Positions 38,406-60,806 of a DNA stretch of 64,000 nucleotides are shown one piece after another. The notes beneath the pieces are model-generated. The model was not told the DNA's origin. It saw only the letters and a program-made list of their open reading frames with translations, and searched no databases. How positions within the stretch are numbered: position 1 is the stretch's first letter; each line of letters opens with the position of its first letter. The stretch spans positions 1 to 64,000 of the forward strand of contig JAQVMW010000009.1 of NCBI GenBank assembly GCA_028703445.1, given 5' to 3'. The position numbers and the translations under genes were made by a program. The DNA is from Candidatus Peribacteraceae bacterium. GTDB taxonomy: Bacteria; Patescibacteriota; Gracilibacteria; Peribacterales; Peribacteraceae.

Positions 38406-38885
38406 TCAGTGTGAAACAGAAGGTGGTTCTGTTGTTTTGCAGTACGGCATCGTCTCGATGTGGCAAGTGCCGTTTTCCGCATCGAACGTGAACTCGGTGA
38501 GCGTATCATCCGCCGCCCATTGAGCATCCATGGGAATTCCCGCCTGTGCAAAAAAATCCTCGAGGACCCTGCGTCCGTTTCTCTGGGCTGCCTGCAGGCG
38601 CTCATCCCAGTGCGTGAAGACGGCAGCTCCCCTGGCAACGACGTAAATTTCCCCCAGTTTTTTCCGGGAGGCCCGCAAAAAACGATGCACCGAATCGTCG
38701 ATTTTTCCTGCGGCAACCGGCGAGAGAATATGCGCCGCGAATCCTCCCCGGGAAACATCATGCGGATGTCGTGTCACCAGAAACGTACCGGCGGATGTCC
38801 ATCCCATCTCCACCTCTTCGGTGCCTTTCACCCACTTGAAGTACGTATACGCTTCATTACCACCTGATTCTTGTTTCCGGTCCAT
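38406..38885 (-). CDS. Hypothetical protein, 159 aa
   Basis: Starts MDRKQESGGNEAYTYFKWVK. Contains FLVTRHPHDVSRGGFAAHIL, FLRASRKKLGEIYVVARGAA, FTHWDERLQAAQRNGRRVLE. Looks like a soluble alpha/beta protein of about one domain. No family recognised. Confidence 0.6.
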   Translation of the reverse strand: MDRKQESGGNEAYTYFKWVKGTEEVEMGWTSAGTFLVTRHPHDVSRGGFAAHILSPVAAGKIDDSVHRFLRASRKKLGEIYVVARGAAVFTHWDERLQAAQRNGRRVLEDFFAQAGIPMDAQWAADDTLTEFTFDAENGTCHIETMPYCKTTEPPSVSH

Positions 38886-38954
38886 AGTGATACCATAATC
38901 TTCTTATTGTAATTGTCAATATTTCAGTTAATAGCACTGCAGCCCATGAAGATT

Positions 38955-38998
38955 GCATCTTCTGGCGCTTGATTTTCGATCAAGAAATGATAAGATGC
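38955..38998 (+). promoter_or_regulatory. purP promoter overlapped by nested inverted repeats
   Basis: Outer pair GCATCTT (38955-38961) with AAGATGC (38992-38998); inner pair CTTGAT (38968-38973) with ATCAAG (38979-38984). Promoter boxes TTGATT (38969-38974) and TAAGAT (38991-38996) with a 16-base spacer lie inside the repeats, 12 bases before the ATG. A repressor site is plausible. Confidence 0.55.
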
Positions 38999-39008
38999 AC
39001 GAAATACC

Positions 39009-40064
39009 ATGACAAAGCCGAAGCCCATTCTGCCGGCCTCCACGAACACCAAAGACTACTGCATTGTCACCATGGGGAGTCATTCGGCGTTGCAGATTTT
39101 GAAAGGTGCCCGTGACGAGGGCATCCGCAATCTCGTCATCTGCAAGAAGGGGCAGGAGCGGCCCTACAAGAGTTACGGCGTCGCCGACGAGATCCTGTTC
39201 GTCAACGACTGGTCCGAGTGGAACGATACGCTGGAGGAGGAGCTCATTCGCCGCAATGCCATTGTCATTCCCCACGGGTCGTTTGTCGCGTACCTCGGGC
39301 CCGAGCGGGTGATGAAGACGCAGGCGATGTACTACGGCACCAAAGAGATTCTGAAATGGGAGAGCGACCGCACGCTGGAGCGCAAATGGCTGGAGAGTGC
39401 GGGCATCCAGATGCCGACGCTCTTCGCAAAGCCCGAGGACATCGATCGGCCCGTGATCGTCAAATTCCACGGCGCGTTGGGTGGATTCGGCTACTTCATC
39501 GCCAAATCCGCGGAGCAGTTCTACGAGGTGAAGAACCGCAAATACCCTGAACAGAATGAATACGCCCTGCAGGAGTACATCGTCGGCGTGCCGCTCTACG
39601 TGCACTACTTCTACTCGCCGATCACCAGGGAGCTCGAGATCATGAGCTTCGATAAACGGTACGAATCCAATGCAGACTCCATCGGCCGTATCCGCGCCGA
39701 AGATCAGCTGGCAGCCAATATCTTCACAAGCTACACCATCGTCGGCAACATTCCCGTGGTCGTGCGCGAGTCGCTTCTGCCGCGCTTTTTCGAGATGGGG
39801 GAGCGGGTGGTCGAGCAGAGCCGCCACCTCAAGGCGGGCAAAGGCCTCTTCGGTCCCTTCTGTCTGGAGTGCATCATCACCAGAAAACTGCAGATCTTCG
39901 TCTTCGAGATTTCCGCCCGCATCGTGGCCGGCACCAACCCGTTCATCGAGGGGTCGCCCTACACGGCGCTTCGGTACAAAGAACCCATGAGCACGGGGCG
40001 GCGCCTCGCACGTGACATCAAGCAGGCGATTGAGCAGGGGAGGCTGGAAGAGGTGTTGGGGTAG
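39009..40064 (+). CDS. purP: PurP-type formate-dependent IMP-pathway ligase (FAICAR synthetase)
   Basis: 351 residues matching archaeal PurP along its length: MGSHSALQILKGARDEGIRN, VVCKKG-like LVICKKGQERPYKSYGVAD, VIPHGSFVAYLGPERV, KEILKWESDRTLERKWL, VIVKFHGALGGFGYFIA, YVHYFYSPITRELEIMSFDK, GNIPVVVRESLLPRFFEMGE, FEISARIVAGTNPFIEGSPY. An ATP-grasp enzyme that makes FAICAR from AICAR, formate and ATP, replacing the folate-dependent step of PurH. It is typical of Archaea and unusual in Bacteria. Followed after 48 bases by a second PurP-like gene. No other purine genes are in the window, so the pathway is not shown to be complete. Confidence 0.88.
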   Translation: MTKPKPILPASTNTKDYCIVTMGSHSALQILKGARDEGIRNLVICKKGQERPYKSYGVADEILFVNDWSEWNDTLEEELIRRNAIVIPHGSFVAYLGPERVMKTQAMYYGTKEILKWESDRTLERKWLESAGIQMPTLFAKPEDIDRPVIVKFHGALGGFGYFIAKSAEQFYEVKNRKYPEQNEYALQEYIVGVPLYVHYFYSPITRELEIMSFDKRYESNADSIGRIRAEDQLAANIFTSYTIVGNIPVVVRESLLPRFFEMGERVVEQSRHLKAGKGLFGPFCLECIITRKLQIFVFEISARIVAGTNPFIEGSPYTALRYKEPMSTGRRLARDIKQAIEQGRLEEVLG

Positions 40065-40112
40065 ACCGGGTCATTGGTTCTTCGTTCCTTTTCTTCTACA
40101 CTTTCCACACAC

Positions 40113-41270
40113 ATGGATATTTCCGCACTCCTCAAAGGCCTCGATCCCAAAAACATCACCGTCGGCGTGCTTGGAGGGCACAGTGCACTGGATGTCTGTC
40201 ACGGAGCGAAGAAGTACGGATTCAAGACGGTGTGTGTAGCACGAAAGGGAAGAGAAAAAACATACGCACAGTATTTTCGAGCTCAAAACTCAAAACTCAA
40301 AACTCAAAGCTTTCACGGCTGCATTGATGAAGTGATCCTCGTCGATAAGTTTGAGGATGTACTGAAGGGAGACGTCCAGAAGAAGCTGAAAAGTCTGAAT
40401 ACAATCTTTGTACATAATCGCTATTTCTGGGTCTATTTTTCCGATTATTCCAAGCTGGAGAATGACTTTCAGATTCCCATCTTCGGCTCACGGACATTCG
40501 TGAAGTTGGAGGAGCGTGATCAATCCTACAACCAGTATCACCTGCTCAAAGATGCGGGGATCCGCACGCCGAAAATTTTTAAGAAACCCGAAGATATCGA
40601 CCGGCCGGTGCTGGTGAAAGCGGCCGAGGCGAAGCGCGGGTACGAGCGGGCATTCTTCGTGGTCGGCGGCAAAGAAGAATGGGAACGTGAGGGAACGAAA
40701 TTGGAGAAAGAGGGCAAGGTCGGCCCGAAGTGGCGGCAAGCGACCATTGAGGAGTTCGTCGTCGGCGCACCGATCAATTTCAATTTCTTCTATTCTCCCC
40801 TCACCAAAGAACTCGAACTCCTTGGCACCGATACCAGACGTCAGACGAACTTGGACGGGTTCCTCCGCATGACGGCACCGGAGCAAACGAAGGCACTCCA
40901 CTCCGGGATTCCCTTGAAGATGATCGAGACCGGCCATATCGCCTGCACCGTGAAGGAGTCCATTCTCGAAAAAGCCTTCGACCTCGGCGAAAAATTCGTG
41001 AAGGCCACGCAGAAACTGCCGAAGTCGCTCGATCCATCGGGCAAGGGCATCATCGGTCCCTTTGCGTTGCAGGGAGCGGTGGTGGCCGATGATGGCAAAG
41101 AAGACATCGTGATTTTCGATGTGTCGCTCCGGATTCCCGGATCGCCGGGCACGTTTGCGACTCCCTATTCGCGCTATCTGTATGGTGAGGCGATGAGTGT
41201 TGGGGAGCGGATCGGTTTGGAACTACAGAGAGCAGTTGCGGAGAAAGTGCTGGAGAAAGTAGTGACGTGA
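40113..41270 (+). CDS. PurP paralogue, ATP-grasp protein
   Basis: 385 residues from the ATG at 40113 (MDISALLKGLDPKNITVGVL). It keeps the PurP frame: GGHSALDVCHGAKKYGFKTV, VARKGREKTYAQYF, FGSRTFVKLEERDQSYNQYH, DIDRPVLVKAAEAKRGYERA, NFNFFYSPLTKELELLGTDT and VSLRIPGSPGTFATPYSRYL. It resembles the second archaeal PurP-like group, whose role is less certain. Near residues 56-66 the sequence AQNSKLKTQS is encoded by three AAAACTC words (40279-40305), an apparent in-frame repeat insertion. TACACT (40097-40102) ends 10 bases before the ATG, with TTGGTT 17 bases further up, so it has its own promoter. Confidence 0.8.
   Translation: MDISALLKGLDPKNITVGVLGGHSALDVCHGAKKYGFKTVCVARKGREKTYAQYFRAQNSKLKTQSFHGCIDEVILVDKFEDVLKGDVQKKLKSLNTIFVHNRYFWVYFSDYSKLENDFQIPIFGSRTFVKLEERDQSYNQYHLLKDAGIRTPKIFKKPEDIDRPVLVKAAEAKRGYERAFFVVGGKEEWEREGTKLEKEGKVGPKWRQATIEEFVVGAPINFNFFYSPLTKELELLGTDTRRQTNLDGFLRMTAPEQTKALHSGIPLKMIETGHIACTVKESILEKAFDLGEKFVKATQKLPKSLDPSGKGIIGPFALQGAVVADDGKEDIVIFDVSLRIPGSPGTFATPYSRYLYGEAMSVGERIGLELQRAVAEKVLEKVVT
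40279..40310 (+). repeat. AAAACTC-word repeat inside the PurP paralogue
   Basis: CTCAAAACTCAAAACTCAAA and a following ACTCAAAG. The surrounding protein family has a loop here, which would tolerate the extra residues. Built like the intergenic word clusters. Confidence 0.55.
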
Positions 41271-41317
41271 TGCTTTTCATTGACGGGCAGAAAAAGACGC
41301 CGTAGCGTCGCTTTCCT

Positions 41318-41509
41318 ATGGTGAGCAGGAATGCGCTGCCGGATCTCACGCATCTGACCGATGCGGAGGTGATCGAGGAACTGCGCCGGCATGCGCAATT
41401 GACCTTCAATCAGGCACTCCGCTGCAAGCAACGCATCGACGACATGCAGGGTGAAGCATACGCAGAAGCCTTGCGCCTGGTCATGCAGTTGGAGCCTCCG
41501 GGTGAGTAG
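41318..41509 (+). CDS. Small helical protein, 63 aa
   Basis: MVSRNALPDLTHLTDAEVIE, then ELRRHAQLTFNQALRCKQRI, ending MQLEPPGE. A single helical hairpin by eye; unknown. Its end overlaps the end of the convergent 41481-41753 gene by 29 bases. Confidence 0.55.
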   Translation: MVSRNALPDLTHLTDAEVIEELRRHAQLTFNQALRCKQRIDDMQGEAYAEALRLVMQLEPPGE

Positions 41510-58806: not shown

Positions 58807-60132
58807 CTATAACCGCGACATTGCCACCTGCTTTTCGGCATTCTTCGCGGAGTGAGGGGCATCGTCGGCCCAGTTACGCGGATCCATGCCCGGGCAGATG
58901 AAACTCTTGCAGAATTCCGCGATTTCGCCAGCGATCCTGTCCAAGACGGCTTCGTCTTTTGCGTTCGTGAGCACGGCGTTGATCCAGTCACCGATCTTGA
59001 TCATCTCGGCCTCTTTCATCCCGCGCGAGGTGACGGATGGAGTGCCGATGCGCACGCCGGAGGGGTTCATGGGTGTCTGGGTATCGAAGGGCACGAGGTT
59101 GCAGTTGGCGACGATGCCGGCGCGGTCGAGTGCCCGCGAGGCGTCACGGCCGAGGATGCCCTTGCTCTTGAAGGTTTCAAAGAGGATCAGGTGGTTGTCG
59201 GTTCCCCCGGTGATCAGCCGAAAGCCGTGCTTGAGGAGCTGGTCGGCCAGTGCCTTCGCATTCTTCACAATCTGCGCGGCATATTCTTTAAAGGCAGGCT
59301 GGCTTGCTTCTTTGAAGGCGACAGCGATTGCGGCCGTCGTCTGGTTGTGAGGTCCGCCCTGCAGGCCCGGCATGATCGCCTTGTCGATGGCCTGCGCAAA
59401 CTTGGCCTTGCATATCATCATGGCTCCGCGCGGCCCCCTGAGCGATTTATGTGACGTGGTGATGCCGGTATCGGCCATCGGGAAGGGGCTGGGATGCACG
59501 CCGCCGAGGATCAATCCCGTAATGTGCGAGATGTCGGCATGGAAGATCGCGCCGACGTCATCGCAGATTTGTCGGAACTTCTGCCAGTCGATGGTGCGGG
59601 GATAGGCGGTGTAACCGGCCACGATGATCTTTGGCTTCGCTTCTTTCGCCAGCTTCCAGATCTGGTCGTAATCCAGTCGCTCCGTCTGCGGGTTGAGTTC
59701 GTAGGGTGCGGAGTGATAGAGCTTGCCCGAGAAGTTCACTTTCCACCCGTGCGTGAGGTGACCGCCCTGCGCGAGAGCAAGTCCCATGATCGTGTCGCCC
59801 GGTTGCAGCACGGCCGTATACACGGCCATGTTTGCCGGACTGCCCGAGTACGGTTGCACGTTGACGTGATCTACGCCGAAAGCGGCCTTCGCCCGTTCGA
59901 TGGCGAGCGTCTCGATCTGGTCCGTGTTCTGCTGACCCTCGTAGTACCGTTTGCCCGGATACCCTTCGGAGTAGATGTTCGTGAGCACGCTTCCCGAGGC
60001 TTCCAGCACCGCGGCAGATGCATAGTTCTCGGAGGGGATGAGGCGGACTTTCGACCATTGCCGCTTCTCCTCGGCGATGATGAGATCGCGAATCTGCGGA
60101 TCCGTCTTCTGAAGCGCGGGGAGGTAGGTCAT
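58807..60132 (-). CDS. glyA: Serine hydroxymethyltransferase
   Basis: 441 residues, PLP enzyme making glycine and 5,10-methylene-THF from serine and THF. Blocks: LIPSENYASAAVLEASGSVL, NIYSEGYPGKRYYEGQQNTD, VNVQPYSGSPANMAVYTAVL, IFHADISHITGLILGGVHPS, and the PLP lysine K229 in TTSHKSLRGPRGAMMI. The usual TTTHKTLRGPR is slightly altered (TTSHKSLRGPR) but the lysine is kept. Next to 5-formyl-THF cyclo-ligase, so one-carbon genes cluster here. Confidence 0.96.
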   Translation of the reverse strand: MTYLPALQKTDPQIRDLIIAEEKRQWSKVRLIPSENYASAAVLEASGSVLTNIYSEGYPGKRYYEGQQNTDQIETLAIERAKAAFGVDHVNVQPYSGSPANMAVYTAVLQPGDTIMGLALAQGGHLTHGWKVNFSGKLYHSAPYELNPQTERLDYDQIWKLAKEAKPKIIVAGYTAYPRTIDWQKFRQICDDVGAIFHADISHITGLILGGVHPSPFPMADTGITTSHKSLRGPRGAMMICKAKFAQAIDKAIMPGLQGGPHNQTTAAIAVAFKEASQPAFKEYAAQIVKNAKALADQLLKHGFRLITGGTDNHLILFETFKSKGILGRDASRALDRAGIVANCNLVPFDTQTPMNPSGVRIGTPSVTSRGMKEAEMIKIGDWINAVLTNAKDEAVLDRIAGEIAEFCKSFICPGMDPRNWADDAPHSAKNAEKQVAMSRL

Positions 60133-60224: not shown

Positions 60225-60806
60225 TTATCTCTGTGCTCTCTCAAGTCCCCGGACAGTCACGATGCCGTCTAACGGAGCGTCGTGGGCTTCCGTGGGTACG
60301 GCGCTCACGATCTGGCACTCGAAAGCGACGCCGTAGTAGAGCGATTGCCCGTTCTCTTTGCGGTGAGCGGTGATCCACCGGTCGTAGCCTCCGTTGCCGC
60401 GTCCCAGACGCTTGCCTGTTCTGTCGAAGGCGCGTCCCGGAATGAGGACAACCGCCGGTTCTTTTGGATCGAGGGGCGGGCAGGCGGGTGGCGGCTCGGG
60501 AATTCCAAAGGTGCTTTGGATGAGGTCAGAGAGTGTTTCGATCTTTCGCATGACGAGATGGCGGCCGTCGAATGACGGGAGAAAGAGTAACCGGCCACTC
60601 TGGAGCAGCTGCTCAAGCAGAGGCCGGATGTCGGGTTCGGTCTTCATGGGGACGAAGGCACAGATCGCTCCGTCCGTCGGCAATACTTCAAGAATGCGTC
60701 GCACGATCGAGCGACTTTCGGCGGCCTTCGATTGCTCATTCATGTGCTGAATGCGCTCGAGGATGGCCTGACGGAGCTTTTGCTTCTGCTCGGAGGTGTG
60801 GGGCAT
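60225..60806 (-). CDS. 5-formyltetrahydrofolate cyclo-ligase
   Basis: 193 residues. N-terminal helix (EQKQKLRQAILERIQHMNEQ), AICAFVPMKTEPDIRPLLEQ, and the ATP/folate signature VVLIPGRAFDRTGKRLGRGN GGYDRW. Converts 5-formyl-THF (a by-product of GlyA) back to 5,10-methenyl-THF, which fits its place upstream of glyA on the same strand. Confidence 0.92.
   Translation of the reverse strand: MPHTSEQKQKLRQAILERIQHMNEQSKAAESRSIVRRILEVLPTDGAICAFVPMKTEPDIRPLLEQLLQSGRLLFLPSFDGRHLVMRKIETLSDLIQSTFGIPEPPPACPPLDPKEPAVVLIPGRAFDRTGKRLGRGNGGYDRWITAHRKENGQSLYYGVAFECQIVSAVPTEAHDAPLDGIVTVRGLERAQR

Follow-up and report, generated by a model that had tools for sequence, protein, structure and literature searches.

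A tandem pair of PurP-like ATP-grasp genes alongside an intact PurH in a Peribacteria genome

Introduction

The PurP-like proteins of Archaea fall into two clusters, I and II, which are set by the identity of residue 258 (Asn versus His) and by the length of the loop at residues 161-165 (Brown et al., 2011; PMC3261824). The two formyl contacts, His27 and Arg314, are 100% conserved in both clusters (PMC3261824). In P. furiosus, PF1517 represents cluster Ib and PF0421 represents cluster II, and neither protein showed AICAR formyltransferase activity in the tests reported by Brown et al. (2011; PMC3261824). For several Archaea, no IMP cyclohydrolase is known (PMC3261824; PMC6797443). Archaea use the PurP family to make purines from free formate. 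A survey from 2014 described PurP as exclusively archaeal (PMC4177761). The Peribacteria genome paper portrays nucleotide synthesis in these bacteria as essentially complete, and PurP is not named in the accessible passages of that paper.

Here, we describe a tandem pair of genes, PurP-I and PurP-II, in a bacterial genome of this group. We lean, by a small measure, towards reading the pair as a conserved purine module that has been inherited as one unit across the class Peregrinibacteria/Peribacteria and that stands beside an intact PurH without replacing it.

The host genome and the gene pair

The window, i.e., the whole stretch of DNA that was analysed, is 64,000 nucleotides long. It belongs to a tiny, groundwater-type bacterium, whose genome is a MAG of Peribacteria (CPR) of 1.37 Mb with a completeness of 98.75%, and the bacterial host claimed in an earlier sequence-only reading of this DNA is thereby confirmed. 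The nearest named relatives of the host are Candidatus Peribacter MAGs, with a protein identity of 93%. The features considered are as follows.

39009..40064, plus strand: PurP-I (A), cluster I PurP-like ATP-grasp protein, 351 aa, ATG start
40065..40109, plus strand: gap from the PurP-I stop to the PurP-II ATG, 45 nt
40110..41270, plus strand: PurP-II (B), cluster II PurP-like ATP-grasp protein, 386 aa, ATG start
58807..60132, minus strand: glyA, serine hydroxymethyltransferase, folate one-carbon supply, context only (Pfam SHMT, E=3.6e-149)
60225..60806, minus strand: 5-formyltetrahydrofolate cyclo-ligase, folate context only (Pfam 5-FTHF_cyc-lig, E=2.6e-36)

For PurP-II, the ATG at 40110 is preferred over a TTG at 40074. 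Both folate genes, which had been placed in the window beforehand, were located by their Pfam matches. Each PurP gene had also been credited with a promoter of its own close to its ATG; however, a sigma-70 scan of positions 38800-41500 gave no promoter-like site on the plus strand, and none in the 45-nt gap, as its three matches (versus 1.5 expected by chance) all lie on the minus strand. A search of Rfam around the pair gave two tRNAs only and no riboswitch.

Both proteins belong to the PurP family

The two Pfam domains of the PurP family, DUF1246 and DUF1297, together span the whole of each protein and score far above the gathering thresholds, with E=1.7e-40 and E=3.7e-66, respectively, for PurP-I and E=1.9e-35 and E=5.8e-52 for PurP-II. 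Sequence searches of the PDB gave only PurP structures as solved relatives, namely P. furiosus 2r84 (9e-106) and M. jannaschii 2r7k (2e-99) for A and 2r7k (5e-61) for B, while the identity between the two proteins is 29%. The match of both proteins to the PurP family is far beyond chance. AlphaFold2 models (pLDDT 87 for A and 85 for B) find their best matches in the PurP proteins of M. jannaschii and P. furiosus, with PurK and PurT far behind: the best Foldseek match of A is 2r7k at a TM of 0.88, and B matches 2r7k with a Z of 41.5 (VIA) and an rmsd of 2.2 over 352 residues, the next family after PurP being PurK at a Z of 20. Domains, sequence matches and models thus agree in calling both genes archaeal-type PurP, as had been proposed.

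Membership of the family is a broader statement than identity of function. Against the NCBIfam equivalog models for FAICAR synthetase (EC 6.3.4.23), A reaches 417.6 bits, below the cut-off of 580, and B reaches 253.6 bits, below the cut-off of 556. Therefore, the two proteins are filed here as PurP-like proteins of clusters I and II and not as proven FAICAR synthetases.

Residues and phylogeny separate A from B

More than 80 homologues were aligned, and positions are numbered after M. jannaschii PurP. In this alignment, A retains His27, Ser94 (within the motif HGSF), Asn258 (within GNIPVV), Ser266 and Arg314, i.e., every published AICAR and formyl contact among those checked. Its glycine loop, GALGGFG, is of the short form, and the (K/R)GG(K/R)G P-loop reads LGGFG, so that the glycines are kept and both basic residues are gone; these positions vary among bacterial homologues. 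B retains His27 and Arg314, but has His at position 258 (TGHIACT), Tyr at position 94 and a loop, EAKRGYERAFF, that is two residues longer. Its ATP-grasp core and its formyl-contact residues are thus kept, whereas its AICAR-contact residues are not. The published residue criteria place A in cluster I and B in cluster II. The replacement of Ser94, a phosphate contact, by Tyr extends across the clade of B, whereas cluster II proteins of other CPR families and one Micrarchaeota protein keep Ser94, and Tyr94 therefore marks a subtype of cluster II.

In a maximum-likelihood tree, in which Archaea were sampled by the two solved proteins and two DPANN contigs, clusters I and II are split at a support of 100/100, and parallel clades recur in the two halves. 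This split, together with Asn258 in A and with His258 and the longer loop in B, bears out the proposal that the pair mirrors the two archaeal PurP groups. A single bacterial PurP-I clade is not rejected (p-AU 0.4), and the grouping of bacteria with Woesearchaeota has a support of 78/54 only.

The same genome encodes PurH and folate enzymes

A full-length PurH is encoded elsewhere in the genome, outside the window (contig C2), with all checked motifs of both catalytic domains intact and with scores far above the cut-offs (671.8 bits versus 402 for NF002049 and 596 versus 528 for TIGR00355). The genome also encodes formyltransferases with the lengths of PurN (215 aa) and Fmt (321 aa), FolD, and AIRS_C proteins of PurL size (846 aa) and PurM size (397 aa). 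The PurO type of IMP cyclohydrolase (PF07826) gave no match in this genome or its relatives, in which the positive controls were matched.

With a PurP pair and folate genes in one window, the organism had been proposed to handle folate yet perhaps to avoid it at the AICAR step. Such a folate bypass is a tempting metabolic reading, but an intact-looking folate-dependent enzyme for the conversion of AICAR to IMP is present, together with PurN- and Fmt-type formyltransferases, FolD, GlyA and 5-formyl-THF cyclo-ligase, and the reading is therefore corrected as unsupported. The PurN-type protein implies that the earlier GAR step remains folate-dependent. Since PurH is kept in the same genome, the PurP pair supplements the ordinary bacterial route and has not taken its place.

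Distribution and constraint

Two sets of genomes were used, one comprising the genome of the window and 38 relatives (39 genomes), the other a sample of 380 genomes of the phylum. DUF1297 occurs in 23 of the 39 genomes (the host and 22 of its 38 relatives, including the single-contig genome G004), typically in two copies that are adjacent or lie close together. In the phylum sample, PurP was found in 38 of 380 genomes, a count that excludes sub-threshold and fragmentary matches, and 37 of these 38 have two copies; beyond the class to which the window belongs, the pair occurs in at least four further families (f27, f28, f73 and f106) of the phylum. The single-copy exception, G022, is without PurP-I and without PurH, and what is left is a degenerate cluster II gene (L040:3963-5240) that has lost His27 and is apparently a decaying remnant. 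Among close relatives with estimable dS, dN/dS is about 0.04-0.12 for both PurP genes, which indicates strong purifying selection; the corresponding values for PurH are 0.09-0.11.

Given that the literature calls the family exclusively archaeal (PMC4177761), one might think of a recent foreign acquisition or of an artefact of MAG contamination. This would be hard to reconcile with PurP in 22 of the 38 relatives, mostly as closely linked pairs and also in a genome that consists of a single contig, or with a class-wide clade under low dN/dS, and we regard it as extremely improbable; contamination or a one-off transfer is ruled out by the distribution across relatives and phylum.

A PurP pair on a Woesearchaeota contig (L018:110-2268) is approximately 59% identical to that of the window and is nearer to it than P. 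furiosus PurP is to A. This similarity suggests that DPANN archaea and CPR bacteria may have exchanged the pair.

The near-perfect pairing, in genes that are adjacent or closely linked, and the parallel clades in the tree could also mean that PurP-I and PurP-II are subunits of a single, obligately hetero-oligomeric enzyme, in which each protein alone is inactive and PurP-II is a PurP-derived subunit with a regulatory or substrate-channelling role. Archaeal cluster Ib and cluster II proteins tested singly were reported to be inactive (PMC3261824), and B has kept the ATP-grasp core while losing the AICAR contacts. However, two consecutive enzymes would pair equally, and M. jannaschii PurP is active alone, without a cluster II partner, so that we offer the hetero-oligomer as a tentative alternative only.

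Linkage to purine synthesis

PurH is found in 36 of the 38 genomes with PurP versus 43 of the 342 others (Fisher p=6e-26, a significance inflated by relatedness), and, outside the class, in 5 of 6 versus 39 of 337 (p=1.5e-4, again with genomes that are not independent). The 36 genomes with both indicate that the pair belongs to de novo purine synthesis and is not a replacement of PurH here.

In Peribacteria, the PurP pair stands alone, but in relatives it lies among purine genes. In G210, guaA lies upstream of PurP-I, PurP-II, PurH and PurB, which overlap one another; the order is PurB/PurH/PurP-II/PurP-I in G258 and PurP-I/PurA/PurP-II/PurB in G114; and, in many genomes of the class, purH is a few kb from the pair and a PurN-sized formyltransferase is on the same contig. 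On the Woesearchaeota contig, purP-I, purP-II and guaA are accompanied by a purD-like gene and by a transcription factor B-like gene, which was assigned by eye as archaeal.

Several class members carry, directly downstream of the pair, a gene for a GlmU-like sugar-1-phosphate nucleotidylyltransferase/acetyltransferase, which matches the archaeal model TIGR03992 below its cut-off:

L089:7752-9041: GlmU-like gene
L037:9636-10919: GlmU-like gene
L014:10271-11695: GlmU-like gene
L092:712-2079: GlmU-like gene

The linkage to purine genes bears on whether the pair has been recruited to another ATP-grasp reaction, on a different ribonucleotide, with IMP made by PurH alone. The intact PurH and the PurN-type protein, the altered ATP loop of A and altered AICAR pocket of B, and the scores of both proteins below the equivalog cut-offs would all fit such a change of function. 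Strong purine synteny, in operons with PurH, PurB, PurA, GuaA and PurL, and the retention in A of all checked published AICAR and formyl contacts argue the other way, and recruitment is therefore considered unlikely. The sequence-only reading had named a full bacterial purH, combined with another ATP-grasp function for these genes, as the outcome that would speak against it: the purH is present, whereas the other function is not borne out, because synteny in the relatives ties both genes to purines.

An unclassified bacterial MAG contains a compact operon (L017:241-10249) in the order purL-purQ-purC/purE fusion-purM-purB-purP-I-purP-II. Neither PurH nor PurO was found in the genome of this MAG or in that of the Woesearchaeota contig, although these absences are weak evidence for both genomes, and the former bin is in short contigs. 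The position of the pair after purB, these absences, and the Crenarchaeota and Pyrococci that have the pair and no known cyclohydrolase (PMC3261824) can be combined into the proposal that PurP-II is an IMP cyclohydrolase and that the pair carries out both final steps, from AICAR via FAICAR to IMP, a possibility on which Brown et al. (2011) had speculated for Archaea. However, a PurH IMP cyclohydrolase domain is encoded by the host and by almost every CPR genome that carries the pair (split off as a separate gene in G114 and G127), and cyclohydrolysis is ATP-free, yet B keeps its ATP-grasp core. We regard this proposal as improbable, and a cyclohydrolase role of PurP-II is not needed in the genome of the window. 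The wider proposal, that cluster II is the long-missing IMP cyclohydrolase of CPR and Archaea (or, with PurP-I, a two-subunit formate-dependent enzyme from AICAR to IMP) and the sole AICAR-to-IMP route in some genomes, for example those of L017 and L018, likewise earns little credence.

Split and divergent PurH in other CPR genomes

Some CPR genomes encode the AICAR formyltransferase and IMP cyclohydrolase halves of PurH as two separate genes, with the order reversed in G114 and G127; PurH domains on their own have been described as a frequent occurrence in Archaea only. Truncated PurH matches had pointed to a missing IMP cyclohydrolase in G114 and G127, which was rejected when the domain was found as a separate adjacent gene. 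In other CPR genomes, an IMP cyclohydrolase-like frame of approximately 200-265 aa occurs alone, with no AICAR formyltransferase or PurP match.

L083:1847-3581, minus strand: split PurH
L084:2804-4382, plus strand: split PurH
G213:C1:180341-180886: stand-alone cyclohydrolase-like frame
G269:C22:280282-280824: stand-alone cyclohydrolase-like frame
G094:C6:17072-17620: stand-alone cyclohydrolase-like frame

Split PurH is likewise found in G286, G259 and G291, and stand-alone frames in G054, G159 and G316 were recognized by PF01808 alone. In addition, a divergent full-length PurH-like family (L088:1569-3197 in G240, and approximately 20 more CPR genomes) scores near 100-170 bits. The G240 protein has lost the residue aligned to the catalytic Lys66, so that its cyclohydrolase half may be inactive; this genome also carries the PurP pair.

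Proposed function of the pair

The purine module beside PurH draws on family identity, pairing, conservation, the purine synteny of relatives and coexistence with PurH. Judged from sequence, the pair is most likely an ATP- and formate-dependent AICAR-formylating module that works alongside PurH. PurP-I would convert formate, AICAR and ATP to FAICAR, ring closure of FAICAR to IMP would fall to the cyclohydrolase half of PurH or to a downstream partner, and PurP-II would be either an obligate partner of PurP-I or the next enzyme. Formate-THF ligase (FTHFS) was not found in the 39 genomes of the host and its relatives, and the module may therefore bring free formate into purines. Formate arises in cells from, for example, peptide deformylase and riboflavin synthesis, and the benefit would then be the reuse of free formate that the cell cannot load onto folate.

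Several points count against this purine module: the tested archaeal cluster Ib and II proteins were reported to be inactive as AICAR formyltransferases, the loop of A has lost both basic residues, and the scores of both proteins are below the equivalog cut-offs. In addition, with PurH present, a route through formate is biochemically redundant in this genome.

Comparison with known systems

Despite the label "exclusively archaeal," PurP is here a stable, class-wide feature of bacteria that also keep PurH. Our search of the open-access literature found no description of PurP in CPR, and automated PurP annotation in public MAGs presumably exists. This is likely the first clear bacterial description of the PurP pair and of the Ser94-to-Tyr subtype of cluster II. 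The bacterial pairs, the operons with PurH and PurB, and the Tyr94 subtype provide new proteins and natural contrasts for probing the role of cluster II.

M. jannaschii PurP (MJ0136; 2r7k/2r7l/2r7m), a FAICAR synthetase of cluster Ia, has the ATP-grasp fold and domain order in common with A and B, and shares His27 and Arg314 with both and Asn258, Ser94 and Ser266 with A. A is 47% identical to it and has GALGGFG in place of GARGGRG, whereas B differs by His258, Tyr94 and the longer loop. M. jannaschii has one PurP and is without PurH (PMC3261824), whereas the host has two PurP proteins and PurH.

The closest solved protein to A is P. furiosus PF1517 (2r84-2r87) of cluster Ib, 55% identical over the aligned part, and its genome likewise has a cluster II partner (PMC3261824). 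Unlike PF1517, A lacks both basic loop residues, and its host is a bacterium with PurH. Archaeal cluster II proteins such as PF0421 share with B the His258, the loop longer by two residues and the cluster I partner, whereas B and its clade have Tyr at position 94, for which almost all archaeal proteins are reported to have Ser or Thr.

Bacterial PurH (PurHJ) catalyses the steps from AICAR to IMP that a PurP route would serve, but is unrelated to PurP and is folate-dependent. The coexistence of PurH with two PurP proteins is already known from Methanosarcinales, which have a full-length PurH and typically two PurP-like genes (PMC3261824), the same combination as in the host. The difference is that the host described here is a bacterium (CPR) and that its two PurP genes are arranged in tandem.
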